Part shown: piece by piece, positions 18,922 to 49,554 of the stretch
How the letters are laid out: each line of letters starts with the position of its first letter
Numbering within the stretch: the stretch's first letter is position 1
Assembly (NCBI RefSeq): GCF_000802425.1
Contig: NZ_JRUD01000003.1
Coordinates: 124,001 to 188,000, forward strand
Direction of reading: 5' to 3'
Length of the DNA: 64,000 nucleotides
Source of the DNA: Pseudomonas flexibilis
GTDB taxonomy: Bacteria; Pseudomonadota; Gammaproteobacteria; Pseudomonadales; Pseudomonadaceae
Position numbers and translations under genes: made by a program
The notes under the pieces: model-generated
The model's input: only the letters and a program-made list of their open reading frames with translations
The model's database searches: none
Told to the model about the DNA's origin: nothing

Positions 18922-18929
18922 GGAGGCCA

Positions 18930-19151: not shown

Positions 19152-19450
19152 TCGGCATCCCCGAGACCGGCACCCTGCAGCACGGCTGCATCAGCGCCAA
19201 TGTCACCACCGGCTACCGGTTCACCACGGCCGATGGCCGCCCGGCGCGTATGGCCCTCATCGATGAGCAGGGCAACGTGATCGAGGCCGGCGACACCGTG
19301 GCACGCGAAGCCTGGAACGTGTGCATCAAGGTGCAGAAGAACTTCTGGATCGGCCAGGGCCACCTGGTGGTGCACAGCGCCCCGCCCGGCGTGGCCACTC
19401 AAGCGGCCGCACCGGCCGAGCAAACCCCGCGCCGCCGCGCGCGGGGCTGA
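19148..19450 (+). CDS. Small phage early protein, unknown
   Basis: A 100-residue protein with a beta-rich core (GYRFTTADGRPARMALIDEQG) and a basic tail (TPRRRARG). Its start overlaps the previous stop, so it is translationally coupled. No family recognised. Confidence 0.55.
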   Translation: MIGIPETGTLQHGCISANVTTGYRFTTADGRPARMALIDEQGNVIEAGDTVAREAWNVCIKVQKNFWIGQGHLVVHSAPPGVATQAAAPAEQTPRRRARG

Positions 19451-19468
19451 TACCACCAAGGAGCAGTT

Positions 19469-20407
19469 ATGTTTTTCCGGAACCTGTTGATGTACCGGCT
19501 GTTGGCCGATTTCCGCCTGGATGTCGAAGCGCTGCCCACGGCGCTGGCCGAGAAGCCGGCGCGGCCCTGCGGCAGCCAGGAGCTGTCCACCTATGGCTTT
19601 GTTGCCCCGCTGGGCAAGGGCGAGGAGGCGCCGCTGCTGCACGCCTGCCAGGGCTTCCTTCTGATTGCTGCCCGCCAGGAGGAGCGGATGCTCCCCGGTA
19701 GCGTGGTGCGTGATGCGCTCCAGGAGAAGATCGAGGCGATCGAAGCCGAGCAGATGCGCAAGGTCTACAAGAAGGAGCGCGAACAGTTGAAGGACGAGAT
19801 TGTCCAGGAGTTCCTGCCCCGGGCCTTCACCCGTCGCAAGCAGATCTTCGCCGCCATCGACCCGCAGGCCGGGTTGGTGCTCGTGAATACCAGCAGCCAT
19901 CGTCAGGCCGAGGATCTGCTCAGCACCCTCCGCGAAGTCCTGGGCAGCCTGCCGGTGCGGCCGCTGAACGTGAAGCACGACCCGAGGCGAGCGTTCACTC
20001 AGTGGGTGAAAGACAGGTCCGTCAGCCACGGTCTGCACCTACGCGATCGCGCTGTGCTGATCGATCCCCACGAGGACGGAGGCAAGATCGCCGCCACCCG
20101 GCAGGACCTGTCTAGCGACGAGATCCAGAACCACCTCGCGGCCGGCAAGTTCGTGACCACGCTCAGCCTGGCCTGGGAGGACAAGCTGTCCTTCGTCATC
20201 GACCACAAGCTGACCATCCACCGCCTGACCTTTGATGACCTGCTGCAGGAGCAGGCCGAGCAGGACGGTGGCGACGACAGCAACGGCCAGTTCGACGCCT
20301 CGTTCGTGCTGATGATGCTGACCTTCCGGGAGTTCGTGCCGGCGCTGCTGGAGGCGCTGGGCGGGGAGGAGATCTCGGGCACAGTCAGCGAAGGGGGTGA
20401 GGCATGA
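19469..20407 (+). CDS. rdgC: Phage-encoded recombination-associated protein RdgC
   Basis: A 312-residue RdgC homologue: N-terminal [11 protein letters not shown], the [11 protein letters not shown] region, [19 protein letters not shown] and [11 protein letters not shown] near the middle. RdgC forms a ring on double-stranded DNA and restrains RecA. A phage copy may protect replicating DNA or temper RecA during induction. It overlaps the next gene by 4 bp. Slightly longer than typical, with an acidic QDGGDDSNG stretch. Confidence 0.9.
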
Positions 20408-20742
20408 GAATACGCAGCAGAGGAAGCATCACCATCGACGGCCGAACGTTCAGCGGCGATGTGGTCATCCAGGGGGACGGCACGGTTACGGTGAACGATC
20501 AGCAGCAGGGCAGCTTGGTCGGACCTGTGACCATTACGGTGGACGGTAATGTCGAGCATCTGGAAGCCGGTAGCGGCAGCGTCACGGTGACCGGGGCTGC
20601 CGGTACGGTCAGAACCATGAGCGGCAATGTTCGCTGCGGTGATGTGGAGGGGGATGTCGGCACCATGTCCGGATCGGTGACCTGTGGTGCGATCCGGGGC
20701 AATGTGAAAACCCTTTCGGGCTCGATCAACTGTGGGAGGTAA
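20404..20742 (+). CDS. Small beta-solenoid protein
   Basis: A 112-residue protein made almost wholly of short repeats: [58 protein letters not shown]. The regular Gly/Val/Ser spacing with Cys stacked at the same rung position predicts a right-handed beta-helix, like bactofilin or DUF4097-type repeats. Translationally coupled to rdgC. Function unknown; small beta-solenoids can mimic DNA (pentapeptide proteins) or form filaments. Confidence 0.6.
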
Positions 20743-20748
20743 GGCTCT

Positions 20749-20970
20749 ATGACCGAAGTGACCATTACCGTGCGCTACACCGGGCACACCTACGTGGCCC
20801 GCTGCCGTGGTCATAAACCCACCGCCAGCTGCGTGTACGACCCCGCGCTGGCAGCCAAGGCGCTGGCCCGCAAGCTGGAACTGGATGAGGAGAGCGTGGC
20901 CAAGACGGCGGGTAGCGGTGACTACCTGGAGTTCACGGCCCTGGCCAGCGTGGAGGTGCTGCATGACTGA
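20749..20970 (+). CDS. Small phage early protein, unknown
   Basis: A 73-residue protein (MTEVTITVRYTGHTYVARCR) with a beta-alpha layout and two Cys. It overlaps the next gene by 8 bp. No family recognised. Confidence 0.55.
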   Translation: MTEVTITVRYTGHTYVARCRGHKPTASCVYDPALAAKALARKLELDEESVAKTAGSGDYLEFTALASVEVLHD

Positions 20971-21190
20971 GATCACTCAGGATCAACTGCGCGAGCTGCT
21001 GCGCCTCTACTTCCGCTCAGTCTACGGAAGCCAAAGAAAGGCAGCTGCAGCGTTGGGTGTGAGTGATGCTTACGTTTCAGCGGTGTTGCTTGGGCGAAGC
21101 TCGGTGCCGGCCGGTTGGATGGGGCTGGTGGGTGCTAGAGCTGTGCTGGTTGTGCCAGAGTGTTCGACGAAAGCAGAAAGCCCCGCATGA
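20963..21190 (+). CDS. Small helix-turn-helix protein
   Basis: A 75-residue protein with an XRE-like helix-turn-helix: GSQRKAAAALGVSDAYVSAVLLG. Start 20963 lies within the end of the previous gene. It is the last gene of the early operon, ending at a bidirectional terminator. It could be a late-early regulator or an excisionase-type accessory factor; this is inference. Confidence 0.6.
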   Translation: MTEITQDQLRELLRLYFRSVYGSQRKAAAALGVSDAYVSAVLLGRSSVPAGWMGLVGARAVLVVPECSTKAESPA

Positions 21191-21204
21191 TGCGGGGCTT
21201 TCTT
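21176..21204. terminator. Bidirectional terminator between convergent early and cI operons
   Basis: Near-perfect palindrome: GAAAGCCCCGCAT, one base, ATGCGGGGCTTTC. A-rich sequence on one side and TTTCTT on the other would serve both strands. Confidence 0.8.
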
Positions 21205-21524
21205 CAAGCGGTTTGACTGTGACCAACTAGTTGGGAAAGCCCAATTCCCAGCGCTGAAAGCACAGTCCGGAGCGTATGGAGGCCGGGGTTACCGCCGGTA
21301 TCGAACTGGCGGTACAGGTTGGTACGGCTCAGGCCGGTGGTCCGAGCCAGCTCGGTAAACCCAAGGCGCGCTTCAATTATGCGTCTTACAGCCTGAAGGA
21401 AAACGGCCTCACCGCCTTCCTCATCAATTTCTTCCAGTGCTGCAGAGAGGTATTCGATGGCAAAATCTTGGTCCTCACGGAGCATCTTGAGGACGCTATC
21501 TTCGTGATTGCTGACTCTTTTCAT
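21204..21524 (-). CDS. HigA-like antitoxin (XRE family)
   Basis: A 106-residue protein typical of the putative addiction-module antidote family: an acidic N-terminal segment (EYLSAALEEIDEEGGEAVFLQAVR) then a helix-turn-helix (GFTELARTTGLSRTNLYRQF). AAGGAGA precedes the ATG, and the start overlaps the toxin stop as ATGA. It would neutralise the toxin and autoregulate the pair. Confidence 0.85.
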   Translation of the reverse strand: MKRVSNHEDSVLKMLREDQDFAIEYLSAALEEIDEEGGEAVFLQAVRRIIEARLGFTELARTTGLSRTNLYRQFDTGGNPGLHTLRTVLSALGIGLSQLVGHSQTA

Positions 21525-21847
21525 TGCCTGAGTTCTCCTTTGAGCGCAAGCCATACCTTTACGGCTTCGTCAATGTCCTTCTGCTGGCTTTTTTTGGTGC
21601 CGCCGCCAAGCAGGAGGATTACCTTGGTTCCTTCTACGGCAAAGTAAACCCGGTAGCCGGGGCCGTAGTGAATTTTCAGTTCGCGAACCCCGTGCCCAAC
21701 TGGCTCGTTGTCCCCGAAATTTCCATTTGCAGCTCGGTCAACTCGAGTGGTGATGCGTGCCTTTGCGCTGCGATCCTGGAGGGAGTCGAGCCACGCTTGG
21801 TAGATATCGATACCGTTGTCACTGTGAGCGTGTTCGACTTCGTACAT
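21521..21847 (-). CDS. RelE/HigB-type toxin (phage-derived Gp49-like killer protein)
   Basis: A 108-residue protein: YQAWLDSLQDRSAKARITTRVDR, GVRELKIHYGPGYRVYFAVEG and VILLLGGGTKKSQQKDIDEA, the standard pattern of ParE/RelE-superfamily addiction-module killers. It probably acts as a ribosome-dependent mRNA interferase. The toxin precedes the antitoxin, the HigBA order. It may stabilise the lysogen or act in phage exclusion. Confidence 0.85.
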   Translation of the reverse strand: MYEVEHAHSDNGIDIYQAWLDSLQDRSAKARITTRVDRAANGNFGDNEPVGHGVRELKIHYGPGYRVYFAVEGTKVILLLGGGTKKSQQKDIDEAVKVWLALKGELRQ

Positions 21848-21946
21848 CCGTACCCTTCCCTCGAGCTCAAGTGTACCTTTTAAGGGACAGCTTACTAATT
21901 GAAATAATGCATTGGTGTAACCACACCGATTTGGCCAGAGGCGGGG

Positions 21947-22588
21947 TCAGGCCCCCAGCAGCGCCTGCTGCCATTGCTCCTCGCCCACAATGGCGATCGG
22001 AAAGCCTTCCTCGCGCAGCTCCACGGCGCGCAGGATCTTGGTGCCGTAGCTGGTGTGCCGCCACTGCTCGTTGCCGATGCTGCCCACCACCAGGAAGTTC
22101 ACCTTTCTGCTGACCGAGGCACCGATCTCGCCGCCGCGATCGATCACCAGCTTCTCGCACTCGCGGCGCGGGCCGAAGGCCATGGTGCCGGTGAACAGGA
22201 ATACGCGGCCTTCGCAGATGATGTCCGGCGCCGGCTGGTTGAGGGGCAGGGGGTTGGGCGCGGTGTAGGCCCTGGCGGTGGGGCTGGCCACAGTGAGGCC
22301 AGCGAAGCCGCGCAGGGTATCCAGCAGCTCGGCCGACTCTTCGGCATCGAGCACGCCGTCCTGCAGCATCAGGCTGATGCGCTGGTAAAGCAGGTTGATG
22401 ACGGGGTCGTCCAGGTGCGCCAGTTGAGTCTCGATCCACTGGCGCAGGAACTGCGCTTCTTCGACCTTGACCACACCATCGGCCGCAATGCCGGCGGCCA
22501 GGCCTGCGAGTACATCGGCGCTGCGGCGGTCCATGCGGGCTGCGTTGAAGAAGCGGCTGTTGGCAAACTCGTTGTGCAGATCAGACAT
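21947..22588 (-). CDS. BRCT-domain protein
   Basis: A 213-residue protein. The N-terminal half is helical (about 1-110). The C-terminal half is a BRCT domain with ICEGRVFLFTGTMAFGPRRECEKLVIDRGGE, SRKVNFLVVGSIG and GTKILRAVELREEG, close to the NAD-dependent DNA ligase type. No ligase or exonuclease domain is attached. It lies 32 bp after cI in the same operon, so it is likely expressed in the lysogen. Confidence 0.8.
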   Translation of the reverse strand: MSDLHNEFANSRFFNAARMDRRSADVLAGLAAGIAADGVVKVEEAQFLRQWIETQLAHLDDPVINLLYQRISLMLQDGVLDAEESAELLDTLRGFAGLTVASPTARAYTAPNPLPLNQPAPDIICEGRVFLFTGTMAFGPRRECEKLVIDRGGEIGASVSRKVNFLVVGSIGNEQWRHTSYGTKILRAVELREEGFPIAIVGEEQWQQALLGA

Positions 22589-22620
22589 TTCTCACGTTCC
22601 TTGTGAAGGGGAGGCGTGGA

Positions 22621-23367
22621 CTACAAGCCGGGGATCTTCGCGTCGATCACCCGGCCGATGATTTCCCAGGTGCCGTCCATGGGGATGGTCTGGTACTGGG
22701 GGTTGAGGGGGACCAGGTACTCAATGCCGGCATCCCGGATGTATTGCTTGAAGGTGACGCTGTCGTCGTCATCGCCGCCGCGGCCGTTGAGGTTGCGGGC
22801 GATGTAGTACTTGCCGCTGACCAGGTCGAAGTCCTTGCGCACCAGGATGTAGGTGCCTTCCGGGAAGGAGGGCTGCACGTCGCGGGTCATGGAGTGGCCG
22901 CGCACGGTCAGCCAGTAGGCGCCTTCGCCGGCGTTCTCGGTGGAGCTCAGCCAGGTGTCGGCGATGCCCTGCGGATAGCAGACCGAGGACTCGCACGCCT
23001 CGCCGGCGGCCACCCAACTGATCAGCGGGTACTCGCGGGGTTCGCGGCGTGGCTGCGGTGCGGGGGAAACGTTGCCGTGTTCGGTCGCGGCCGCGAGCTG
23101 GGCAATCTCGGCCGCAAGGCGGGGACTGAAACTGTCCACAGGCTCTTCGATAAGGCGAGCAAAGGCTGCGGCAAACCTGGCGTTTAGAGGGTTGGTGCCG
23201 TTGAGGTAGTAGGCGACAGACGGGGGCGAAACTCCGATCTCGTCAGCGATTTTTTTCTGGCTGAGCTTGAGCGCGTTTTTCTTTGCCAAGAAAAGCTTCT
23301 GCGCTGCATGACATTCAGCCAAAAGCTCTGGACTAAGGGGCTTCTTCTTCGACATGGGCGCAATCAT
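22621..23367 (-). CDS. CI-type phage repressor with LexA/S24 autocleavage domain
   Basis: A 248-residue repressor (numbering from 23367). The helix-turn-helix is at about 36-56 (LSQKKIADEIGVSPPSVAYYL). The C-terminal S24 domain has an Ala-Gly cleavage site (SWVAAGEA, 121/122), the nucleophile Ser159 in GHSM and the catalytic Lys207 in VTFKQY. RecA-stimulated self-cleavage would induce the phage. Start 23367 falls in the first operator; the alternative is 23355 (MSKKKP). Neither has a good ribosome-binding site, so a leaderless or nearly leaderless message, as for lambda cI, is possible. Confidence 0.9.
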   Translation of the reverse strand: MIAPMSKKKPLSPELLAECHAAQKLFLAKKNALKLSQKKIADEIGVSPPSVAYYLNGTNPLNARFAAAFARLIEEPVDSFSPRLAAEIAQLAAATEHGNVSPAPQPRREPREYPLISWVAAGEACESSVCYPQGIADTWLSSTENAGEGAYWLTVRGHSMTRDVQPSFPEGTYILVRKDFDLVSGKYYIARNLNGRGGDDDDSVTFKQYIRDAGIEYLVPLNPQYQTIPMDGTWEIIGRVIDAKIPGL

Positions 23368-23429
23368 AAACCGTCGGTTAATAAAGTAAATTAGCCGACG
23401 GCGTTGCGCTAATCGAAGCCGCCGGCTAA
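23367..23429. promoter_or_regulatory. Right operator triplet (three 15-bp sites at 24-bp spacing)
   Basis: Sites: 23367-23381 TAAACC-GTC-GGTTAA; 23391-23405 TTAGCC-GAC-GGCGTT; 23415-23429 GAAGCC-GCC-GGCTAA. All fit TTAGCC-N3-GGCTAA and start exactly 24 bp apart, like lambda OR1-3. The first overlaps the cI start; the last overlaps the cro promoter -10. Confidence 0.8.
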
Positions 23430-23432
23430 TAT
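23404..23432 (+). promoter_or_regulatory. PR-type promoter for cro
   Basis: TTGCGC (23404-23409), a 17-bp spacer and TAATAT (23427-23432), 31 bp upstream of the cro ATG and overlapped by two operators. Confidence 0.75.
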
Positions 23433-23462
23433 CCCTGCGTCCTAAGGTTGCAGGGGCCAGTC

Positions 23463-23657
23463 ATGCAGAAAATTCAGTTATCAGAGCTCGTCTCTACAAA
23501 GGGGCTTGCTGCGGTTTCCCGGGCCCTTGGTGTGAGTCCGCCCGCCATTCACAAAGCGATAAGTGTCAATCGCAACATCTTTGTCACGGTGCGAGATGAC
23601 GGCACCTGGGTGGCGGAAGAAGTCCGCCCGTTTCCCTCTCAAAAAAAAACCGCCTGA
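23463..23657 (+). CDS. Cro-like repressor
   Basis: A 64-residue protein with the Cro layout: MQKIQLSELVSTKGLAAVSR, the helix-turn-helix ALGVSPPAIHKAISV, then a beta hairpin (RNIFVTVRDDGTWVAEEVRP) and a Lys-containing tail. It is divergent from cI across the operator triplet. It would compete for the same sites and favour lytic growth. The coding end contains a run of nine A. Confidence 0.85.
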   Translation: MQKIQLSELVSTKGLAAVSRALGVSPPAIHKAISVNRNIFVTVRDDGTWVAEEVRPFPSQKKTA

Positions 23658-23710
23658 CCCCGCCCTGCGGCCGGTCAGCGGCGCAGGGCAGGCAGGTCGG
23701 ACTCTAGGAG
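23641..23710 (+). promoter_or_regulatory. A9 run and possible H-type pseudoknot at the cro 3' end and next-gene leader
   Basis: Nine A (23641-23649) in cro are followed four nt later by CTGACC (23654-59) pairing with GGTCAG (23673-78), interleaved with GCCCTGCG (23662-69) pairing with CGCAGGGC (23682-89). Both stems are perfect. A -1 slip would extend Cro to a TAG at 23704-23706, touching the AGGAG of the next gene. Structure and slip are inferred by eye. Confidence 0.35.
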
Positions 23711-23722
23711 CCACCGCCCCTC

Positions 23723-24370
23723 ATGACCACGTCCAACCCCCGACATAACCCGTCTGGCCTGCGGGTTTCCCGCGACCAGGTGCTGGTGGCCTACGCCACC
23801 CAGATGATCGCCCGCACCCAGCTGAGCCAGGACGATTTCGCCCAGGCGCTCAGCGCCCAGCTGCATCTGCTTATTCCTATCAAGGCCGTCGCGGCCAACG
23901 TGCCGGACTTCGAGGCTCTGGCCCGTGGCAACGACACGGCTGCCTTCCTGCGCGCCTCCGGCGCCTGGTTGCGTCGCGTCGGCCGCTGGCTGAGCGGGGA
24001 GGTGGAGGTGCCCGGCTGGATCGAGGAGGCCTGGGTGCAGGCCCTGACAGGCGAGTACCAGGAGCGCTGCCTCAACGAGCTGGCCAGCCGCCACGGCCTG
24101 ACCGGCGCCCGCGCGCTGGAGGGCAACGCCTGCCCAGTGGGTGTGTTCGGCCAACTGGTGGCCCGGCTCGGGCAGACGGTGGAGCTGGGCAGCGAGATCC
24201 TTGCCGACGGCAAGATCGACGAGGGCGATCTGCCGTTGCTGCCAGAGTTCATCGATCGCCTGAAGGCGGTGGAGGCCCGCTGCGGCGAGCTGCGCACCAA
24301 GGCGCAGATGGCCATGGCCAATGAGTCCACGTCTCCCGTTGCGCCGGTGCGCGCCGTGCGTACCCGGTAG
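23723..24370 (+). CDS. Phage early protein preceding rep, unknown
   Basis: A 215-residue, mostly helical protein (QVLVAYATQMIARTQLSQDD, PGWIEEAWVQALTGEYQERC) without membrane segments. AGGAG lies 12 nt before the ATG. It is between cro and the Rep gene, the position of CII or replication-accessory genes in other phages. No family recognised. Confidence 0.6.
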   Translation: MTTSNPRHNPSGLRVSRDQVLVAYATQMIARTQLSQDDFAQALSAQLHLLIPIKAVAANVPDFEALARGNDTAAFLRASGAWLRRVGRWLSGEVEVPGWIEEAWVQALTGEYQERCLNELASRHGLTGARALEGNACPVGVFGQLVARLGQTVELGSEILADGKIDEGDLPLLPEFIDRLKAVEARCGELRTKAQMAMANESTSPVAPVRAVRTR

Positions 24371-24381
24371 CGATCGATTCG

Positions 24382-25218
24382 ATGCGGTTGAAGCCTTCCC
24401 CCAGTTCGCCAGACGCCGGTGCCTACGCCGGGCTGTCGGCCGCCCCGGCGCTCGCCGGGCACGCGGCCGGCCGGCGTCCGCGCGGGCTGTCGGAGAAGCA
24501 GCGCCAGCAGCTCGGGCTGCTGGGGTTGGCGGCCGATCGCGTGAACGAGGAGGCGCGCGATCGCGGCCGGCGCTGGCTGCGTCGGTTGGATACCATCCAC
24601 ATATCCGGATGCCGGACCAAGCAGCAGCGCTGGACGTCGCTGGCCGCCCTGGTGGAGCCGATGCTGGCCCGCCTGGACCTGGCCACCCTCTGCCTGGGCT
24701 GGCTGGACGATAATGGGGCATTCCGCCTCAACCGCCAGCGTGGCCTGGCGGAGGATGGCGGGCTGACCGAGTGCCGCGTGTCACGCACCCTGTCCGCCCT
24801 GGAGGCGGCCGGCTACGTGCGTCGCCGTCGCCGCCGCATCTTCCACAAGGGCAAGCAGTGGATAACCCGGGTGACCCTGCACATTCGCCCGCGCTTCTTC
24901 ATCGACCTGGGCCTGGGCCATCTGCTGGCCGAGACGCGCACGCACTTCAAGGCCCGCCGCGAGGCGCAGCTGCGACAGGTACGCGTGCGGCAGCAGCAGG
25001 ACACACTGCAGGAGCTGGCGGACGCGCAGACGCGCCGGCAGTCGCATCGCCAGGCGCAGGCCGTGCGCAAGGCCAAGGTGGTGAAGCTGGAAAAGGCCCG
25101 CGAGCTCGAGCGCGGTCGCCTGGAAGCGCAGTTGATCCAGCAGTTGGCTGTGGATAACCCCGACTTGACCCCAGGACAGCTTCGAGCGCTCCTGGCGGAG
25201 CACATGCCCCCGGCCTGA
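24382..25218 (+). CDS. Plasmid-type replication initiator (IncFII RepA-like layout)
   Basis: A 278-residue basic protein. Its centre holds a winged-helix-like block: AALVEPMLARLDLATLCLGW, then GLTECRVSRTLSALEAAGYV and KQWITRVTLHIRPRFF. It ends in a long, highly charged Arg/Gln/Lys helix. This order recalls IncFII-type RepA initiators. In such plasmids the origin lies just downstream of repA, and here about 1.1 kb without genes follows. A perfect DnaA box (TGTGGATAA, 25149-25157) lies in its 3' end. Role and origin position are inferred. Confidence 0.6.
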   Translation: MRLKPSPSSPDAGAYAGLSAAPALAGHAAGRRPRGLSEKQRQQLGLLGLAADRVNEEARDRGRRWLRRLDTIHISGCRTKQQRWTSLAALVEPMLARLDLATLCLGWLDDNGAFRLNRQRGLAEDGGLTECRVSRTLSALEAAGYVRRRRRRIFHKGKQWITRVTLHIRPRFFIDLGLGHLLAETRTHFKARREAQLRQVRVRQQQDTLQELADAQTRRQSHRQAQAVRKAKVVKLEKARELERGRLEAQLIQQLAVDNPDLTPGQLRALLAEHMPPA

Positions 25219-26121
25219 TCGGCCGCCCGTCGCGTTTCCTGCGGCGCTCCCCTTCATTGGCTACGCTGGGCCGAGGCACTGGAAACGCCTCGGCAGCGGC
25301 CTTCTGGGCGCCTTTCCGGGCGCTTTCCCTTCCTTACGCTGCCCCGCACCGGTCTCACCGGCGCGCGCACCCATCCCCTCGCCGGGCGGCCTTCCTCTCT
25401 TCTGCAAGTTTTAATGTCCACTGGTACCAGACTGCGTCTGTACAGAGCCGTTTGCCCCCTGCGCGTTACCACCCACGGCATCAGGCTGAGCCCATGGCAG
25501 ATGATGTCCCCTCACTTCGCGCCTGTCGGCGCGGAGGGTACCCGGTCGAGGTCACCGCATCGGCAGCGCCGGACCGACACCGGGCGCCTTCCAGTCGCTG
25601 TACGCCGGGCAAGACCGTGCCAGCGAAACAGCGTGCAACGGCGTTTCGCTCCTTCACGCGCCTGCCTTCGGCATGCCGCGCGGTGCGCGGCGGGTTGATC
25701 TCAGCGTGGGGGGCGGTCGAATCCGTTGCGCAAGTCCGCAGCACCGCGTTGGAAAAAAGTGCCGTGGCGGGGATTTTTCCGCATGGAATGGGGCTTTGCG
25801 GGGAGGCGGCCAGGGCTCGGCCGGGGCCGGACCGTGCAACGAAAACTTCACGGCGTCGCAATTTCTTTCACAGTGTGCAATTCCGGTTCGCGCGCGCGGC
25901 CCCCCGCCGCCGCAGGGCTGGGCCCTAGATTGCATTCGCGCCCCGATTGCACAAAAAACGCACGCAAACCCCGTCGGCGGGAGGGGGATAAGTGCGTTTT
26001 CGCCCAGGTTTTTTTCGTCGGAGGGGATTTTCGTGGGGTGGCGAGGGGTGGCCGCGCGCGCGGGCGCCGGCGGGCCGTGGCCGGGCTTGACCAAGTCAGG
26101 GGAGGGGCGTAGGGTTCACCC
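25219..26121. other. Gene-free region downstream of rep; candidate replication origin
   Basis: About 900 bp where every open frame reads as low-complexity Arg/Pro/Ala text without ribosome-binding sites, so I call no gene. It contains scattered TGCAA/TTGCA words (for example 25634, 25834, 25877, 25930, 25947) that could be imperfect iterons, and A/T runs amid very GC-rich DNA. By analogy with IncFII plasmids this could be the CIS/ori region. The origin call is speculative. Confidence 0.35.
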
Positions 26122-26210
26122 GTCGCGGTCAATCCCGCGACCGACCTTGGCCGGTCGAACTTCTCTAGGCGCACAAGCGCCCCTACCAGCAGCAGGCGCT
26201 TTTTTTGTGC
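26122..26210 (+). ncRNA. Candidate small structured RNA ending in an intrinsic terminator
   Basis: Three successive hairpins: GTCGCGG/CCGCGAC (26122-26128 with 26135-26141); CGACC-TTGGCC-GGTCG (26142-26157); and AAGCGCC/GGCGCTT (26175-26181 with 26195-26201) followed by seven T (26200-26206). The outer GCACAA/TTGTGC could also pair. There is no open frame with a start signal here. Its promoter was not identified. Confidence 0.45.
26171..26210 (+). terminator. Intrinsic terminator in the gene-free region
   Basis: GCACAAGCGCC pairs with GGCGCTT and TTGTGC, with a T7 run following the inner stem. It separates the rep region from the structured leader of the next gene. Confidence 0.65.
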
Positions 26211-26240
26211 CCGCTGTTCGCGTTATGGCGGCTGTGCGTG

Positions 26241-26349
26241 GGACACCTTCGGGTGTGCCGGGTGCCTAGAGTCCCGGTCGGCCAACCCGCGTACAGCCGT
26301 CACCATTCCCTTGCTTGGCCGCAAGCGGTGACGGCTCCAACTCTAGGAG
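26241..26349 (+). promoter_or_regulatory. Structured mRNA leader with pseudoknot sequestering a Shine-Dalgarno (riboswitch-like)
   Basis: Elements in order: a UUCG-tetraloop hairpin (26243-26256). P1 is CCTAGAGT (26265-72) with ACTCTAGG (26340-47). P2 is AGCCGTCACC (26295-304) with GGTGACGGCT (26327-36), 10 perfect pairs. P3 is CTTGC/GCAAG (26310-14 with 26321-25). The six-base P3 loop TTGGCC (26315-20) is fully complementary to GGCCAA (26280-85), giving a pseudoknot. P1 covers part of the AGGAG (26345-49) of the gene at 26357. Regulation is inferred; the ligand or partner is unknown. Confidence 0.6.
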
Positions 26350-26356
26350 CTGCACC

Positions 26357-26656
26357 ATGAACCAGACCGCCCAGAATCCGTCCGCCCACGCTGCTGCCTG
26401 GAAGGCCCGCGCCTTCGCTGCCCTGCGTTCCGATTCGTCCCTGTCCGTCCGGCTGGCCCGGTACCGCGCCGCCATGAGCAAGGCGAAGGCCCTGGAAGCT
26501 GAGGCCCGCCAACGGCAGGTCACCCGCACTGGTGACCCGCGTGCCGCCCTGGCTTGGATCCAGTCCGGCCGCAAGGTGCGGATCCAGGCGGTGAACCACC
26601 AGGATCTGCTGCGCCACGTGCGCGCTCTGGAAGTGGTGGCCGCGCGAGCTGTCTGA
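26357..26656 (+). CDS. Small phage protein under the structured leader, unknown
   Basis: A 99-residue basic, helical protein (MNQTAQNPSAHAAAWKARAF, RLARYRAAMSKAKALEAEARQ). AGGAG lies 7 nt before the ATG and is partly inside the leader stem P1. A basic single-domain protein after a structured leader could be an RNA- or DNA-binding autoregulator; this is inference. No family recognised. Confidence 0.6.
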   Translation: MNQTAQNPSAHAAAWKARAFAALRSDSSLSVRLARYRAAMSKAKALEAEARQRQVTRTGDPRAALAWIQSGRKVRIQAVNHQDLLRHVRALEVVAARAV

Positions 26657-26712
26657 TAGTTGTGGCTGTACAGCAGCATTGATAAGCTTAAATTTTGCTC
26701 ATTGGGTCGAAT

Positions 26713-27393
26713 ATGGATGTATTGTCTCTTGTTGTTTCTATCTGCTCGATTGCCTTATTGCTTGCGTATGTAATGTATGCGAGCCCTGAGGCTAAAAGGC
26801 GTAGGATTAAAAAGAAGCTAAAGAAGGTTCCTGAGTTTGAGCGCGGAAAGCTTGTATTTAAAAATAAATATCCGAAGTATGATTATGGTGTTGGGACCTA
26901 TGGTCTTCCTAAAGTCAGTGATTTTGGCGAGGGCACTACTCTAAGGATTGGATCGTATTGCTCTATTGCTGCGGGAGTGCACATCTTCCTTGGTGGACAT
27001 CATCGAACCGATTGGGTTTCTACGTATCCCTTTCCCGCAAAACTACCAGAGGCGGCTCACATCAAGGATTATGGTGGGTCGAGAGGTGATGTTGTAATAG
27101 GGCACGACGTATGGCTTTGTTCCAACTGCACTATTTTGTCTGGTGTAAATATCGGTACGGGAGCTGTTGTAGCTGCTGAGGCTGTTGTTACCCGGAATGT
27201 GGAGCCTTATTCGATAGTCGCGGGCAATCCGGCCAAAGTCATAGGTTGGCGCTTCGATGAGGAAACAAGAAAAGAGCTCCTCGCCTCGGAGTGGTGGTCT
27301 TGGCCTTACGAGGAGATATTGAGGGCAGTTGAGCTTTTATGTGACAAAGATATTGGTGCGTTTCTTAAATACGCTCGCACTCTCAGGAAATAA
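26713..27393 (+). CDS. CatB-type hexapeptide O-acetyltransferase with membrane anchor (moron)
   Basis: A 226-residue protein. One N-terminal hydrophobic helix (about 3-22) is followed by a basic stretch and a left-handed beta-helix acetyltransferase domain with IGSYCSIAAGVHIFLGGHHR, VVIGHDVWLCSNCTIL and GAVVAAEAVVTRNVEPYSIVAGNPAKVIG. The likely acetyl donor is acetyl-CoA; a cell-surface polysaccharide is a plausible acceptor. The gene is markedly AT-rich against its neighbours, so recently acquired. It lies at the end of the rightward region, a typical lysogenic-conversion slot. Start at the ATG 26713; ribosome-binding site weak. Confidence 0.8.
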   Translation: MDVLSLVVSICSIALLLAYVMYASPEAKRRRIKKKLKKVPEFERGKLVFKNKYPKYDYGVGTYGLPKVSDFGEGTTLRIGSYCSIAAGVHIFLGGHHRTDWVSTYPFPAKLPEAAHIKDYGGSRGDVVIGHDVWLCSNCTILSGVNIGTGAVVAAEAVVTRNVEPYSIVAGNPAKVIGWRFDEETRKELLASEWWSWPYEEILRAVELLCDKDIGAFLKYARTLRK

Positions 27394-27412
27394 CTTGCCA
27401 GGCTTAAATTTC

Positions 27413-27438
27413 AAAGAGGGCGCCGATCGGCGCCCTTT
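27413..27438. terminator. Bidirectional terminator between rightward early and leftward late genes
   Basis: AGGGCGCC-GATC-GGCGCCCT stem flanked by AAAG and TTTG, in the 47 bp between two convergent genes. Confidence 0.8.
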
Positions 27439-27440
27439 GC

Positions 27441-28463
27441 TTATGCGGTGATGGGGGCCAACTGCCCGTTGAGCTGCTGCGCCGTCGAGGCGTTGGTCGT
27501 AAAGGCGGCAGCAGTGCTGGGCGGTGCGTTCAGGGAAGGGTGGCCGTGCCCGGCCAGCTGGGTGTTCATTTGCTGCACCAGGTCGATGAGGTCGAGCAGC
27601 ACCTGCAGCACGTTGACGCTGTCTGAACCCAGCCAGGTGGTGGGGGCTTCCAGGCGCTGGCCTCCGGCGGCGAGGCTCTGGCGCAGGCCCTCGATCTGCT
27701 CCTGGAGGTTGCCGCCGATGGTCGTACTGGCCTCGGCGCCGACCGTGGTCGTGGCCTTGCCGGCGACGGTGGTCTTCAGGTCGCGCGCGGCCGCATGGTT
27801 GAGGTCGCGGCCGGTGGCCAGGTTGAGATCGTCCACACCGCCCAGGGTGGCGCTGCCGCCGGACAGCAGCTTGAGTGCGCCCAGGGCTTCGATGCGCTTG
27901 ATGCCGCCGACCCGCTCGGTGGCGTGGTCGTCGACCTCGATGTCGGTGGTCTGGTAGCGCTCGGCGTTGGCCTGGGCGGACACCTCGCGCTCCAGGGAGT
28001 CATCGCGGATCCGGCCGTCGGTTTGCCGCATCCAGTTGCCATCGGCATCGGCCCGCTGCTGGCAGGCCTCGCTGTGCTGCCAGACCAGGTCGCCGTCGGG
28101 CACGCGCGGCAGGCTCAGGTTGTGGGCGAGGATCTGCTGGATGAACGGGCGATTGGGCAGGCCGTAGGCGAAGCCGATCACCGCCAGGGTTCCGGGCTCC
28201 GGAAAGCCGAACAGGCCGCGCTCCTGGCCGCCGCTCGGTACCGGCAGCGGCAGGGCGTACAGGGTGGGCAGATCCGGGTCGGGTTCACCGTTGGGCAGCA
28301 GCACCTGGACGTCCACCGCGTACCGGGGGCGGAAGTCGTTGGCGATCGCGTGTTCGGCCGGCGCGTCGGGCACGCCCACCACCAACGCGAAGCGGGGCAG
28401 ATGGTAGGCACCGGTCAGCTCGGGGAATTGCCGCTCTACGCTGCGGCGGATTGCTTCTTCCAT
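27441..28463 (-). CDS. Tail spike/baseplate assembly protein V-like
   Basis: A 340-residue protein. The N-terminal half resembles gpV/VgrG OB-fold proteins (LPRFALVVGVPDAPAEHAI, GFPEPGTLAVIGFAYG, PFIQQILAHNLSLPR). A DUF2345-like beta-helical needle follows (ERVGGIKRIEALGALKL, LKTTVAGKATTTVGAEA). The tail ends in a GHGHPS motif typical of spike tips. It is the last gene of the leftward late operon and overlaps the preceding gene by 28 bp. Confidence 0.7.
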   Translation of the reverse strand: MEEAIRRSVERQFPELTGAYHLPRFALVVGVPDAPAEHAIANDFRPRYAVDVQVLLPNGEPDPDLPTLYALPLPVPSGGQERGLFGFPEPGTLAVIGFAYGLPNRPFIQQILAHNLSLPRVPDGDLVWQHSEACQQRADADGNWMRQTDGRIRDDSLEREVSAQANAERYQTTDIEVDDHATERVGGIKRIEALGALKLLSGGSATLGGVDDLNLATGRDLNHAAARDLKTTVAGKATTTVGAEASTTIGGNLQEQIEGLRQSLAAGGQRLEAPTTWLGSDSVNVLQVLLDLIDLVQQMNTQLAGHGHPSLNAPPSTAAAFTTNASTAQQLNGQLAPITA

Positions 28464-29137
28464 TTGATGGCCATCGTGTTGCCGGCCAGCGTCACCGTGG
28501 TGATGCGCAGGCCGCCGTTGAAGGTGGCGCCCGGCCGCACACCGGGCAGGGCGGGAATCTGGGCACTCTGGTTGCCCTGGTAGTCGTCGAAGATCGAGGC
28601 GGGAAGGGGCAGCGGCCGCGAGCTCCAGAAGCTGTCGGCCCAGCTGCCCACGAACATCTCGCCGTTGCCCTGCTGCTGCCAGATCAGATCCGGCACGGCG
28701 AACACGTCGGCGAGGCTGTCCAGGGCGTGGTAGCCGTTGCCCAGGTTGTAGAAGTAGGGCGCCGGGGTGGTGCTGTAGGGGCGCTCTGGGCAGTGGAAGG
28801 TCAGGCCGGTCAGCTCCTGGAGTGCATCGAGCACGCCGCGCAGGTCGGTGTGGCGCAGGTTCAAGGGCATCGGGTTGGCCAGCACCGCCGCCAGTTCGCG
28901 GCAGGCCAGGACCTGCTGGCCATCGCCCGCAGCCGTGCAGCTTTCCACGTAGCCGATGAAGTGGCGTTGCAGGGCCTGGTCGTTGTAGCCGATGTCGAAG
29001 GTCACCAGGCCACGCAGTGGCTCGCCGCCCTGGACGGTGAACACCGCCCGGCCGGGGGTGTGCAGATCCAGGCGGATGTTCTCACTGACCACCTGGATGG
29101 GCTGGCCGGCTACGCGCAGGGCGCGGTTCAGCTTCAT
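28436..29137 (-). CDS. Baseplate hub-like protein
   Basis: A 233-residue protein (MKLNRALRVAGQPIQVVSEN) with features of hub proteins of the gpD/gp44 group: LRGLVTFDIGYND, LRGVLDALQELTGLTFH. Position next to the V-like spike supports a hub role. Overlaps the next gene by 28 bp. Confidence 0.55.
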   Translation of the reverse strand: MKLNRALRVAGQPIQVVSENIRLDLHTPGRAVFTVQGGEPLRGLVTFDIGYNDQALQRHFIGYVESCTAAGDGQQVLACRELAAVLANPMPLNLRHTDLRGVLDALQELTGLTFHCPERPYSTTPAPYFYNLGNGYHALDSLADVFAVPDLIWQQQGNGEMFVGSWADSFWSSRPLPLPASIFDDYQGNQSAQIPALPGVRPGATFNGGLRITTVTLAGNTMAIKWKKQSAAA

Positions 29138-29643
29138 GCCAGAGCCTCGTCCACGCGCTTGAGGACTTTCTCGAAGGCTGTGAGCTCCTGTCCCGGCTCG
29201 GTTTCGGAGACCCCGCCAGGGCCTTGCGCGGTTGCGTCACCGTCCGGTCGCCTGGACTCCACGCGCTCGGCGACAGACAGGTGCTCAACGAGCGTGAACG
29301 ACACCATCCAGGCGCGCAGGCTGTCGTCTTCCCGGGCGCTGAAATTGTCGCTGAAGCGCACCTGACGAATGCCGAAGGCCTGCGCGGTGTCGTTGACGAT
29401 GCGGTACACCTTGGCCTTGCCGCCGGCGTCGGTGGCTTCGGCGAGGCGCAGCGTGGAACGCAGGTCGGCGCTTTCCTGGAAGCGCACCTGCATGGCGACG
29501 GTGAGGGTCTTGGGCTTGAAGCCCTTATGGGCCGCCGCGCTGTTGCTGGACTGGCCGGACAGGTCGTCCTCCTCGATGCGCAGGTTGGCGGTCACCTTGA
29601 TGTTTTTGCCGCGGATTTGCTCGCCGTCGAGTAGCAGGGTCAT
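29134..29643 (-). CDS. Baseplate-associated phage protein
   Basis: A 169-residue protein with IRGKNIKVTANLRIEEDDLSG, SSNSAAAHKGFKPKTLTVAMQV and RVLKRVDEALA-type ending, a pattern shared by conserved phage baseplate proteins of HP1/P2-like tails. The start at 29643 overlaps the upstream stop (ATGA). Specific role unknown. Confidence 0.55.
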   Translation of the reverse strand: MTLLLDGEQIRGKNIKVTANLRIEEDDLSGQSSNSAAAHKGFKPKTLTVAMQVRFQESADLRSTLRLAEATDAGGKAKVYRIVNDTAQAFGIRQVRFSDNFSAREDDSLRAWMVSFTLVEHLSVAERVESRRPDGDATAQGPGGVSETEPGQELTAFEKVLKRVDEALA

Positions 29644-30554
29644 GCGCCGAACAACTCCTTCAGGTAGGTCACGGCCGATTGCGGGCCGGCCAGCAGCACG
29701 CCGGCGCACAGGCCCCATTCATGGCCGGGGGCATCGCCCTCGAGCAGGGCATCGCGAAGCTCGGCCGGCTCGCCTTCACCCAGCCAGTGGGCGCGCAGGG
29801 TGGTGCCGCCGCCGGCGAGTTCGGCCTGCAGGGTGGCCAGGTGCTGGGCCTGGGCTTGCAGGCGTACCGCCTTCCGGTCCGCCAGGGCGACCAGTTCGGC
29901 GACGGGTTGGGTGTCGACCGCGTAGCCTCCCAGTGCGGCCACCTGGGCGGATATCGCCTGCTGCGCCTGACGTGGCCATGTGCTGCGTTGCAGTCCTCGA
30001 GCACGCCATTTCGGCGCGGTGTCGCTGGCCGGCATCAGCCACTTTTCGCCTTCAAGGCGGGCCAGCTGCCCCGCCCGGCGTTCGGCCCGTTGCAGGGCCG
30101 GCAGCGGCAGCACGGCGTTCAGCACAGCCAGGGACTGGGCCAACTGGCCGAGCTCGGTACCGAGCACCAGGATGGCCAGCCCGTGTTGCCGGCCGATCGG
30201 TCGATGCGGATCCCCACCGGTGGTGAGCTGGCCAGCCATGTGCTGCAGCAGGTTGGGCGCCGACAGGTGCCGTTGGATGCCGCTGCCTTGGCCGACACCA
30301 TGCTGAAAGGGCGTCACGGTCAGCACCGCCACATCAGCCAGCAGGCCGGTCAGGCCCTGGCGGCTACTGGCGATCGCGCCGGATGCGGCCGCGCCTGTCG
30401 GGTTCGGCTCGGTGCTGGCTTTGCCAGCAAGTGCATCCAGTCGTCCGGCCGCCGCGTCCAGCTCGCCACCGGCTTGGGCCAGCGGAGCGTTCAGCGCGGC
30501 CAGCCACTGGGTGGATTGGGCCGGCCAGGTGAGGGATAGGGGAAACCAGGTCAT
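29640..30554 (-). CDS. Conserved tail-region phage protein, unknown
   Basis: A 304-residue Ala/Gln/Leu-rich helical protein (MTWFPLSLTWPAQSTQWLAA). It overlaps both neighbours by 4 bp within the tail operon, which suggests a baseplate or tail role. No family recognised. Confidence 0.5.
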   Translation of the reverse strand: MTWFPLSLTWPAQSTQWLAALNAPLAQAGGELDAAAGRLDALAGKASTEPNPTGAAASGAIASSRQGLTGLLADVAVLTVTPFQHGVGQGSGIQRHLSAPNLLQHMAGQLTTGGDPHRPIGRQHGLAILVLGTELGQLAQSLAVLNAVLPLPALQRAERRAGQLARLEGEKWLMPASDTAPKWRARGLQRSTWPRQAQQAISAQVAALGGYAVDTQPVAELVALADRKAVRLQAQAQHLATLQAELAGGGTTLRAHWLGEGEPAELRDALLEGDAPGHEWGLCAGVLLAGPQSAVTYLKELFGA

Positions 30555-30934
30555 GCGACCTCTGGCTCAGGGGCCGCCGGCAGCGGGTAGCGGGCTTTGA
30601 TCGCAGCGACGGCAGCGAGCCAGGCGGTGTAGTCGGGGGCGGTGCCGTTCACCAGGGCGTCGTAATCTGCCTCGTTCTTGATCGGGTCGGATTCTGAAAT
30701 GTAGGCAATGCGGCGAAGCTCTTGAATTTGATTCAGCGTAAAGGGGACATGCTCCGGCTCAACATACGGGGCAATATCCCCGAAATCTCCAGCCACGATC
30801 CGCTCATACAGCTCGCGGCCATGCTTCTCTGGATCATCTGGCGACGCAGTGAATGGGATCCAGCCAAAGTCCGGGTGCTCTAGTTCACAATCGACAGAGC
30901 CGTACTTGTTGAAACGCAGCTCACGAGCATCCAT
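30551..30934 (-). CDS. Tail fibre assembly chaperone-like protein
   Basis: A 127-residue protein directly after the fibre gene, with a DUF4376-like end (NEADYDALVNGTAPDYTAWLAAVAAIKARYP). In P2-like phages this slot holds the fibre-assembly protein (gpG/Tfa). Assignment is mainly positional. Base use in its middle is more AT-rich than its neighbours. Confidence 0.6.
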   Translation of the reverse strand: MDARELRFNKYGSVDCELEHPDFGWIPFTASPDDPEKHGRELYERIVAGDFGDIAPYVEPEHVPFTLNQIQELRRIAYISESDPIKNEADYDALVNGTAPDYTAWLAAVAAIKARYPLPAAPEPEVA

Positions 30935-32580
30935 TAAGCAATCCTCTTACATAGAGTGACACTGTTTTGCCCGCCCCCGTCCGCGTCGCCTGCCCATCCC
31001 ATAACACTCCACGTTCCAGCCGGACTGGTGCTTCCGGTCCCGTCGACAGCGGTGTACCTGCAACCAGAACCTGCAACAGTTGATCCCGGCTCTTTTCGTA
31101 CTCCGGTCGATTGACCGCCGAGCAGCAAGAATGCATAGGTTCCTACTGCTCCTACGGCAGCGGCGGCATTTGCGGCCATTACGGATGCTGATGTTGCTTC
31201 TGCAGTAATAGTTGCATTCGAACCCGCGTTAACTTTCACGCCATTAATGGTGATGTCGGTGGCCAGCTTGGTTGCCGTCGCCGCGTTTCCGGTTGTGCTT
31301 TGGTTCAGGGTCGGCACCCGCGCGGCCGGGATCGTGCCCTTGGTCAGGTTGCTCGCATCGTCCGCGCCAAGGGTTGCGCGCGCGGCTGCTGCGGTAGCGG
31401 ACTGCAGCAGCAGGCTGACGATGTTGGGCAACGCGCCGCTGCCTTCGGTCACCACGCCGGATGCGTCGGTGAACAGGTTCAGTGCCGTCCGCTGGGCCGC
31501 CTGGGTAGAGGCGGCCAGGAAGGTCCGGGCCGCTGCAGTCAGAACGGCCAGGGACAGCGCGCCGGCGCCGGTGAAATAGGGCATGCGATCGGCGGCGCCG
31601 GTGAGGCCAGCCAGTGCCGCCAGGTTCGCGTGGGCCGCCTGGGCACCGATTTCGGCCAGAGTCCAGCTCAGGGGTGCTTCGCCATTGAACGCCTTGCCCG
31701 TCGCGCCCACGGTCAGGGTGCGCGCCGTTTGCAGCTTGGTTGCGGTGCCGGCGTTGCCGGTGGTGGACTGGTTCAGGATCGGCACCCGCGCGGCCGGGAT
31801 CGTGCCCTTGGTCAGGTTGCCCGCATCGTCCGCGCCAAGGGTTGCGCGCGCGGCCGCTGCGGTAGCGGACTGAAGCAGCAGGCTGACGATGTTGGGCAGC
31901 GCGCCGCTGCCTTCGGTCACCACGCCGGATGCGTCGGTGAACAGGTTCAGTGCCGTCCGCTGGGCCGCCTGGGTAGAGGCGGCCAGGAAGGTCCGGGCCG
32001 CTGCAGTCAGAACGGCCAGGGACAGCGCGCCGGCGCCGGTGAAATAGGGCATGCGATCGGCGGCGCCGGTGAGGCTGGCCAGCGCTGTCAGGTTTTCGTG
32101 GAGTGGCTGTCTTGCGCGCAGCGCCTCGGTGAAATCATGCTGCCAAGTCGCGGCATCAATGGTGATCGCCGTCAGAGCCTGGGCGCCATCGAACGAGACT
32201 AGGAAGTTGCGCGTGACGTTGTTGCCGGTCTGCAGCGGCGGGATGTTGCGGCGTTTCTGTTGCACCGGCACGTAGGACACAGCGAACAGCACGCCTTCGG
32301 CCGTCTGCAGGCCGATCCAGTTCCAATCGAAGTCGCCGATGTCGCTGCCCAGCATCAGGCTGTAGACCACCTGGTTGGGGTTTACATAGCCCTTCTGGGT
32401 GTACGGCCAGGATCCGACAATCTGGTCCGCCGGGGGCATGCCTGCGGCGCGATCGACCGGGCTGTTGGGATCCAGGCCGGGCACCATGGCCAAGACGAAC
32501 CGATTGATGTCCAGGACTTCCCGGGCATCCTGCTTCTGGGCGATCAGGCTTTCGCCGGCGAGGGTAATGCTTGCAGCCAT
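30934..32580 (-). CDS. Tail fibre protein with internal duplication
   Basis: A 548-residue fibre. The N-terminal domain (about 1-160) has LIAQKQDAREVLDINRFVLA, like gpH-type fibre N-termini (DUF3751-like). Two long near-identical copies of an Ala/Thr-rich shaft follow, each with LTGAADRMPYFTGAGALSLA and GTIPAARVP. The C-terminal tip (about 480-548) is Gly/Ser-rich. It binds the host surface. The start at 32580 (MAASITLAG) was chosen for its match to fibre N-termini. Confidence 0.8.
   Translation of the reverse strand: MAASITLAGESLIAQKQDAREVLDINRFVLAMVPGLDPNSPVDRAAGMPPADQIVGSWPYTQKGYVNPNQVVYSLMLGSDIGDFDWNWIGLQTAEGVLFAVSYVPVQQKRRNIPPLQTGNNVTRNFLVSFDGAQALTAITIDAATWQHDFTEALRARQPLHENLTALASLTGAADRMPYFTGAGALSLAVLTAAARTFLAASTQAAQRTALNLFTDASGVVTEGSGALPNIVSLLLQSATAAAARATLGADDAGNLTKGTIPAARVPILNQSTTGNAGTATKLQTARTLTVGATGKAFNGEAPLSWTLAEIGAQAAHANLAALAGLTGAADRMPYFTGAGALSLAVLTAAARTFLAASTQAAQRTALNLFTDASGVVTEGSGALPNIVSLLLQSATAAAARATLGADDASNLTKGTIPAARVPTLNQSTTGNAATATKLATDITINGVKVNAGSNATITAEATSASVMAANAAAAVGAVGTYAFLLLGGQSTGVRKEPGSTVAGSGCRYTAVDGTGSTSPAGTWSVMGWAGDADGGGQNSVTLCKRIA
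31260..32085. repeat. Direct duplication inside the tail fibre gene (period 468 bp)
   Basis: About 350 bp around 31,260-31,610 recurs at about 31,735-32,085 with few substitutions. For example GGCACCCGCGCGGCCGGGAT starts at 31,313 and again at 31,781, an offset of 468 bp (156 codons). Confidence 0.9.
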
Positions 32581-32588
32581 GAGTGCTC

Positions 32589-33110
32589 CTACAGGCTGGC
32601 GACCAGCGTCTGCTGGTCGTCGTTGAAATCCACCAGGGCCATATGCAGGCGCACCGGGGTGATGGTTACAAAGTCGTAGCGGCGGCAGGTGCGGCCGTAT
32701 TGCTGCACCAGGACGCGCAGCAGCTCGGGATTGGCGGATAGCTGGCCGTCGCTCAGGTGCAGCAGCACGACATCCCAATCGCGTCCGTCAATGCGTTCCT
32801 CGATATCGACGTAGCCGATGCCGAGGCGCTGCAGCACCCGCTTGAGCCCGGCTGTAGTGCCTGCGTCCAGAGAGTTGATGAAGGCGTGCTTGACCCGCAG
32901 GCGGTAGAGGTTTTCGGGCTCGCCGTTGAAACGGGTGATGTCGCGCTGCCAGGCCAATAGATCGAGGATGGTTGGGTGGCAGGTGTCGGGATCGATCTGT
33001 TGCAGTGGCCACTGCAACCAGCCCTGCGCCCGGGTCCACCAGGCTTCGGCCGCGCGTCGCAGCTTCGAGATCTCCGGGCCGCTCAGCCACACCGGCAGAT
33101 CAATTTTCAT
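32589..33110 (-). CDS. Phage tail protein I-like (baseplate)
   Basis: A 173-residue protein: LQQIDPDTCHPTILDLLAWQRDITRF and LKRVLQRLGIGYVDIEERIDG match the P2 gpI/TIGR01634-type baseplate family. The gene lies between J and the fibre, as in P2. The start at 33110 overlaps the end of gene J. Confidence 0.8.
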   Translation of the reverse strand: MKIDLPVWLSGPEISKLRRAAEAWWTRAQGWLQWPLQQIDPDTCHPTILDLLAWQRDITRFNGEPENLYRLRVKHAFINSLDAGTTAGLKRVLQRLGIGYVDIEERIDGRDWDVVLLHLSDGQLSANPELLRVLVQQYGRTCRRYDFVTITPVRLHMALVDFNDDQQTLVASL

Positions 33111-49353: not shown

Positions 49354-49430
<77 letters not shown>

Positions 49431-49516
49431 CCGGCCATTCTACTTATCAATGAGGGGCTGTCAATCAATAGTTTTAAAATCAGCCACTTGCGAAGGTTTC
49501 CAGGACGCGGAAACGA

Positions 49517-49543: not shown

Positions 49544-49554
49544 CTGCGTGAATC

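Follow-up and report, generated by a model that had tools for sequence, protein, structure and literature searches.

The leader of ORF99, a short gene in the 64,000-nucleotide stretch of Pseudomonas flexibilis DNA analysed here (the window), raises the question of whether its nested, perfectly paired helices sense a ligand, bind the encoded protein, or serve some other regulatory RNA. The original prediction, made from the sequence alone, considered the first two of these, and its description of the pairings was accurate: helices P1 (8 bp, 26265-26272 with 26340-26347), P2 (10 bp, 26295-26304 with 26327-26336) and P3 (5 bp, 26310-26314 with 26321-26325) are all perfect, a UUCG hairpin is present at 26243-26256, and the six-base P3 loop (TTGGCC, 26315-26320) is the complement of GGCCAA at 26280-26285, this pseudoknot complementarity in fact reaching 7 bp (26279-26285 with 26315-26321). 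The Shine-Dalgarno AGGAG occupies 26345-26349, with its first three bases inside the 3' strand of helix P1, and the ATG follows at 26357. The region 26200-26380 folds better than each of 200 dinucleotide shuffles (200/200, z = -4.23), and the analysis supports a structured, conserved RNA able to mask some of the Shine-Dalgarno bases of ORF99. The element reaches further upstream than had been seen, to about 26087 (Table 1).

Table 1. Positions of the features of the C4 locus within the window, with the basis of each.
Feature	Position	Strand	Basis and remarks
Promoter-like site TTGACC-N17-TAGGGT	26087..26115	+	Sequence reading; score 8.5 of 12.5; putative
c4-a1b1-like element (upstream C4 target)	26109..26161	+	RF03163, 39.3 bits, below gathering 46.7; E 1.6e-8 (501-base search)
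isrK-like leader	26122..26206	+	RF01394, 42.3 bits, below gathering 50
a1 target site	26147..26153	+	Hairpin loop and first base of 3' arm; same 7-mer as a2
b1 target site	26163..26170	+	Complementary to C4 26264-26271, 8 nt; last three bases in 5' arm of next hairpin
Antiterminator-like hairpin GGCGC-ACAA-GCGCC	26168..26181	+	Mostly invariant; 97.3% of cells paired (37 loci)
Terminator-like stem and T run	26175..26206	+	26175-26181 with 26195-26201; 91.8% of cells paired, 37 loci
C4 antisense RNA	26221..26307	+	RF01695, model 1-87 full length, 83.5 bits, gathering 45
C4 mature form, predicted	about 26227-26304, ~78 nt	+	Analogy with mature ends in the phage P1 record
b' (C4 loop)	26265..26272	+	5' strand of helix P1; pairs b2, and b1 shifted by one base
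a' (C4)	26279..26285	+	5' strand of the pseudoknot; pairs a2 and a1
P2 hairpin	26295..26336	+	5' strand is the 3' strand of C4; alternative to C4 fold
P3 hairpin	26310..26325	+	Displays target loop a2
a2 target site	26315..26321	+	P3 hairpin loop; complementary to a', 7 bp perfect
Possible Shine-Dalgarno hairpin	26327..26356	+	Fold of 26305-26360, mRNA with C4 removed
b2 target site	26340..26347	+	Complementary to b', 8 bp perfect; overlies part of Shine-Dalgarno
ORF99, cis target gene, 99 aa	26357..26656	+	Relative of leader ORF of P4-like satellites
Acyltransferase gene, AT-rich, hexapeptide repeats	26713..27393	+	Hexapep PF00132 above cut-off

The feature is a member of the known C4 class of antisense RNA, in what looks to be an unusual place for it, a P2-like prophage, and not a new riboswitch. 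Its covariance model match lies above the gathering score of RF01695 and was the sole C4 match found in the P. flexibilis genome, and the computation establishes this identity together with the matching of its sites. Helix P1 is the pairing of C4 site b' with target b2, and the pseudoknot is that of a' with a2; as is typical of the class, a' and b' are thus complementary to sites close to the ribosome-binding site of the following gene, and a second target pair, a1/b1, lies upstream with matches of 7 and 8 nt. A relaxed a..b pattern occurred at three places only in the whole genome, namely a1-b1, C4 itself and a2-b2 (the reversed pattern, a control for chance, occurred six times). The original prediction had recognised no riboswitch class in the layout. 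This holds to the extent that no Rfam riboswitch family was matched, either across the window at the gathering score or in 25900-26400 at E up to 10, but the layout is a known one, that of C4.

C4 is common among the relatives of P. flexibilis (family genomes were taken as Pseudomonadaceae from named relatives, Pseudomonas and Stutzerimonas), with matches in 123 of 198 genomes; very many C4 elements per chromosome were seen in six of them (G030, G070, G077, G078, G121 and G122, at least 21 matches each). From searches of the family genomes and from phage and genome records we assembled 90 C4 loci, of which 86 were kept after removal of three duplicates and one that was too short; loci found by way of ORF99 (L064-L084) were left out of these 86. 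For each locus, the longest perfect complement of each C4 loop to its own flank was compared with that to the flanks of all other loci. Downstream, the mean longest match of b' was 8.33 nt within its own locus versus 5.22 nt in other loci, and that of a' was 7.03 versus 4.87 nt; upstream, the corresponding means were 7.62 versus 5.54 nt (b') and 7.23 versus 5.27 nt (a'). Downstream b' matches of at least 8 nt were present in 67/86 loci when compared with themselves and in 244/7310 comparisons with other loci, leaving 19 of the 86 without an 8-nt match. The partners of helix P1 and of the pseudoknot therefore vary in sequence from locus to locus with their complementarity kept, which is the behaviour of an antisense pair. 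The target specificity of C4 can thus be read from sequence, which makes immunity groups among satellites and prophages predictable.

The proteins encoded behind C4 likewise differ among loci. Ten downstream proteins were selected from 85 ORFs because they looked by eye like antirepressors; nine have antirepressor-type domains (Bro-N in six, AntA in two, Rha in one) and one is a SymE. The latter is a SymE-type toxin gene (PF08845; L111 1635-1835) directly behind the C4 target sites, where an antirepressor is found elsewhere. Nothing pointed to the suggested autoregulatory site for the ORF99 protein, given that downstream proteins belong to different families across loci and the RNA layout stays constant.

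Compensatory changes among homologues, which the original prediction had named as its own test, were found for helix P1 (6/8 pairs), P2 (7/10), P3 (5/5) and the pseudoknot (5/6), in an alignment that is poor at the 3' strand of helix P1, where 67.8% and 85.1% of cells are paired in its two parts. This alignment comprises 61 loci (a C4 length of 86-88 nt was found in 65 of the 86, from which four sharing at least 90% identity with another were removed). For the C4 fold, 98.8% of its cells are paired and 20/27 pairs show double-sided changes, and the originally proposed structure as a whole has 85.0% of cells paired. The latter showed 315 double-change cells versus 103.6 in shuffles (reached by 0/500), and its count of pairs with double-sided changes was reached by 58/500, kinship among sequences being able to lift scores above such shuffles without any structure. 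Slid controls for the same structure scored at most 0.136 versus 0.457, a comparison in which the counted structures start with an advantage, since the Rfam consensus or the window itself supplied them. In terms of calculated energy, the preferred fold of 26221-26360 was the C4 fold (-75.2 kcal/mol) rather than the one originally proposed (-65.4 kcal/mol with P2 and P3 forced, -61.8 kcal/mol with P1, P2 and P3 forced, the pseudoknot being beyond scoring by the folding model used).

A riboswitch whose ligand-bound fold comprised P1, P2, P3 and the pseudoknot and masked the Shine-Dalgarno of ORF99 would account for helices that are all perfect and covarying and for the overlap of the P1 3' strand with part of the Shine-Dalgarno, but it can be set aside as exceedingly improbable: the paired sites differ between loci yet remain complementary and hence form no conserved binding pocket there, they also match a second copy upstream, the C4 fold is better than forced P2+P3 by about 10 kcal/mol, Rfam assigns C4, and the downstream genes examined are of different families. 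The candidate riboswitch is thus replaced by an antisense system that can be checked.

Upstream of C4, the leader resembles the target regions of related systems, although both model matches there stay below their gathering scores (Table 1), and the segment is accordingly not a member of isrK (RF01394), nor of c4-a1b1 (RF03163), which it resembles in its working only. Phage P1 itself scores 51.0 with the c4-a1b1 model and 35.1 with the isrK model. The isrK-like leader consists of a hairpin, the a1 hairpin, b1 and the terminator-like stem, and its three hairpins show double-sided changes in 12/17 pairs across 37 loci, a hand-picked set of 36 of the 86 plus phage P1. The predicted transcript start, near 26122, coincides with the start of the isrK model match. 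The -10 of the promoter-like site lies 111 nt upstream of C4, and in 26/86 loci the -10 of the best-scoring site lies 113-117 nt upstream (mean best promoter score 8.6 versus 7.5 in simple shuffles, 86 loci). A stricter generic scan of 25900-27450 returned no promoters or terminators; its terminator search takes loops of 3-8 only and missed the terminator-like stem at 26175-26206. Within this segment, GCGCC at 26177-26181 can pair with the GGCGC before it or with the GGCGC after it, the latter pairing giving the terminator-like stem and its seven T. Most of the 37 loci retain both pairings with hardly any variation, such that covariation barely tests these near-invariant stems. Since b1 ends inside the first GGCGC, binding of C4 should favour the terminator.

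RNase P processing of C4 and Rho-dependent polarity belong to the known biology of phage P1. The c4-icd-ant region of phages P1 and P7 (RF01695) has the same fold and the same order as the window, a1-b1-C4-a2-b2-ORF. According to its record, phage P1 has the same C4-complementary 7-mer at a1 and a2, and its b2 and b1 match C4 over 8 and 7 nt, respectively; b2 lies over the Shine-Dalgarno in both systems, and the spacing from b2 to the start codon is 10 nt in phage P1 and 9 nt in the window. Phage P1 has icd and ant behind C4, whereas the window has a 99-aa protein without an NCBIfam match and then an acyltransferase; neither ORF99 nor the next gene has an antirepressor domain, which places the locus outside the P1-type immI operon (c4-icd-ant). 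Upstream hairpins, target sites and a terminator like those of the window are also features of the isrK locus of Salmonella prophage Gifsy-1 (RF01394) and of c4-a1b1 (RF03163), but the antirepressor-like AnrP and antiterminator AntQ of the isrK locus were not found adjoining C4 in the window. At the isrK locus a processed RNA is described as arising downstream of the terminator, and the CI RNA of satellite P4, with seqA and seqC, is similar by description in being an antisense RNA between two target copies (both from sections of PMC4825925). C4 and c4-a1b1 appear in a table of Weinberg et al. 2010 (table of PMC2864571). The c4 RNA of phage P1 is stated to repress Ant synthesis in trans (passage of PMC8546580) and to act by binding around the ribosome site (passage of PMC12197685).

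The locus as a whole is very probably a C4-type antisense module that represses ORF99. A promoter near 26087-26115 would start a transcript that either terminates at 26206, the end of the terminator-like stem, or reads through, and the read-through RNA would fold C4, which would then be excised as a ~78-nt RNA. On the ORF99 message, b' of this RNA would bind b2 at the Shine-Dalgarno and a' would bind the a2 hairpin loop, blocking translation. The C4 loops may also bind a1/b1 upstream and favour the terminator, so that C4 and its target would be limited together. Processing, action in trans and the translational block are expected at this locus because they are known from phage P1 and the isrK locus; for this locus alone we infer attenuation at b1 and likewise any function of P2.

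The P2 helix adds a further layer to this module. Because it is built from the 3' strand of C4, P2 and the C4 fold are mutually exclusive, and a single molecule would hold either folded C4 or the P2 hairpin. The 3' strand of C4 covaries with both of these partners, the C4 stem and P2. For P2, we counted 60 double-change cells versus 21.4 ± 5.6 in shuffles (0/500), and for P3, 84 versus 29.1 (0/500); the numbers of pairs with double-sided changes given above were reached by 126/500 shuffles for P2 and 242/500 for P3. Phage P1 has a similar P2-like hairpin, with 8/9 pairs as read by eye. With the mature end of C4 at about 26304, excision of C4 would take away the 5' strand of P2. In the possible Shine-Dalgarno hairpin of the remaining message, [CT]TCC..GGAG was present in 56/85 loci, and the flanking pairs were not clearly above shuffles in those 85, a weak covariation. 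It is plausible from these sequence patterns that P2 serves as an on/off switch for C4, and the conserved second use of the 3' strand makes such a switch within the precursor testable.

These observations also bear on whether the leader acts in cis as a bistable element, with the choice between P2/P3 and folded C4 setting ORF99 translation in an isrK-like manner. Covariation of the 3' strand with both partners, and the ability of a message lacking C4 to fold its Shine-Dalgarno into a hairpin, are in keeping with such a mechanism, as are the inactive and active conformers of the isrK locus, where the wild type is almost wholly in one conformer and two mutants show both on native gels (as given in sections of PMC4825925). 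However, C4 is complete before the 3' strand of P2 is made and is calculated to be the more stable, the helices described at isrK are different ones, and the Shine-Dalgarno hairpin covaries weakly. We regard a bistable leader as a tentative proposal with somewhat less than an even chance, and one that is compatible with antisense control by C4.

With C4 acting on ORF99 as the preferred reading, the function of the target gene comes into question. ORF99 matches were found in 81 of 298 family genomes (own genome included), with its first half found behind C4 in many. Identity to seven relatives was 47-70%, with differences leaning to codon position 3. ORF99 had no Pfam match at the cut-off, no NCBIfam match, two weak PHROG matches (both of unknown function), and no match among phage records (tblastn at E 0.01); a structural search of its model (pLDDT 78.5, pTM 0.48) with Foldseek against the PDB gave no match at E 0.001, the best being E 2.2. 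An Icd-like or antirepressor protein was considered and rejected, there being nothing at the Pfam cut-off and no NCBIfam match.

The acyltransferase behind ORF99 is CatB/Vat-like, although for all 25 NCBIfam models listed its score stays far under the curated cut-off, and its third-position G+C of 0.44 marks a sharp change of composition from the ORF99 side. It is probably phage cargo and possibly the second gene of the ORF99 transcript. The module might accordingly exist to control the acyltransferase, as in lysogenic conversion, with ORF99 as a leader ORF. The gene lies on the same strand 56 nt after ORF99, and in Pseudomonas phage PAJU2 (L062 6028-9082), whose gene order is similar to that of the window, C4 is followed by a Bro-N gene, an annotated acetyltransferase and then structural genes on the opposite strand. 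However, the 56-nt gap leaves the gene without overlap with ORF99, and the shift in composition at the acyltransferase makes an own promoter possible, and we consider acyltransferase control unlikely, at perhaps one chance in a handful.

The C4 module, here taken as repressing ORF99, lies among phage genes. Nearby regulators include an S24-domain repressor, a Cro-like gene and a CII-like gene, and nearby structural genes encode baseplate, tail, connector and small terminase proteins. A BRCT-domain protein (PF00533, phrog_3989) is encoded adjoining the phage repressor (21947-22588, - strand), and the tail-fibre gene at 30934-32778 contains a repeat of about 370 bp (31264-31633 and 31732-32101, 94% identical). 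The baseplate genes resemble those of Peduoviridae such as phi3 (69% DNA identity over 31% of a 7.3-kb query), and from this DNA similarity we judge the host element to be a P2-like prophage. A 62-bp site at 25970-26031 is 84% identical to phi3, near the end of the phi3 record; it marks the edge of a cargo slot and is possibly a packaging site. The place taken in the window by C4, ORF99 and the acyltransferase is occupied in phi3 by HicAB (annotated), with no C4 at E 0.01 within the 5878 bases examined. We read the module as acquired cargo. The baseplate protein is encoded in 13 of 198 family genomes (own genome included), and no C4 was found within up to about 1.5 kb on each side of 14 other such baseplate loci.

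Relatives of ORF99 follow C4 in elements that carry satellite genes. Of the 13 further loci that matched ORF99, 10 also gave hits for satellite queries (integrase, AlpA, primase or helicase) within the stretch examined (four of the 13 had been fetched by way of ORF99 itself, and without them the count is 6/9). One locus (L002) has an integrase gene, C4, an ORF99 relative and then primase- and helicase-like ORFs, with functions assigned from sequence and from matches to annotated genes of phiAH14b. A 219-nt segment that takes in C4 and the opening codons of the target ORF is 74.6% identical in DNA between the window and Pseudomonas satellite phage phiAH14b, but this phage is a putative satellite that encodes a primase and a helicase of its own; neither 'antisense' nor 'C4 RNA' occurs in the main text of the paper describing it (PMC4936722). 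The satellite-like elements found here thus place C4 and an ORF99-like leader ORF before primase and helicase genes, whereas, in contrast to P4, no replication operon stands behind C4 in the window. The window locus has C4 and the leader ORF, but none of the satellite queries (integrase, AlpA, primase, helicase) was matched across the 14 kb around C4 that were checked (L147), and the locus so does not count as a P4-like satellite. It is therefore unusual in combining a C4 copy and a satellite-like target gene, yet lying in an apparent P2-like prophage.

Loci of the same target type were also found elsewhere. The exact a2..b2 pair occurred in 9 of 298 family genomes, own genome included (reversed control in 2), and all eight other loci had a C4-like sequence just upstream, as seen by eye, five of them also being among the Rfam matches listed. 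The same five matched satellite integrase, AlpA, primase or helicase queries, one of them also having a tail tape-measure gene, and the other three had no match to any satellite query. In viral contigs the pattern occurred in 13, of which seven were compared; one (L119) is identical to window positions 18013-31749, and the six others look like chance hits, with no blastn match to the window and no protein-query match.

From this it could be imagined that a P2-like prophage took over a satellite immunity RNA, and that the cargo C4 acts in trans on incoming P4-like satellites, shutting down their replication operon where the a2/b2 sites are the same. ORF99 relatives behind C4 in elements with satellite genes and the five exact-pair loci with satellite matches would suit such a role, as would the 14 baseplate loci without a neighbouring C4 and the cos-adjoining defence hotspot described in the literature. 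However, chance capture or a satellite remnant would fit as well; no satellite primase was found in the P. flexibilis genome (a search run without a positive control), and the three exact-pair loci without satellite matches and the one with a tail gene nearby also count against it. The baseplate comparison would in addition miss a C4 lying further from the baseplate gene (1.1 kb in the window), which larger cargo elsewhere could hide. None of the literature matches listed, as titles and abstract openings and with the older P1/P4 papers outside their range, describes C4 RNA as anti-satellite immunity in a helper. We therefore hold this role to be rather improbable, less so than a riboswitch and more so than control of the acyltransferase; if true, it would amount to an RNA-based phage defence against the phage's own parasites. 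Elsewhere in the window, three tRNA genes lie about 200 bp apart on the - strand (49357-49830).
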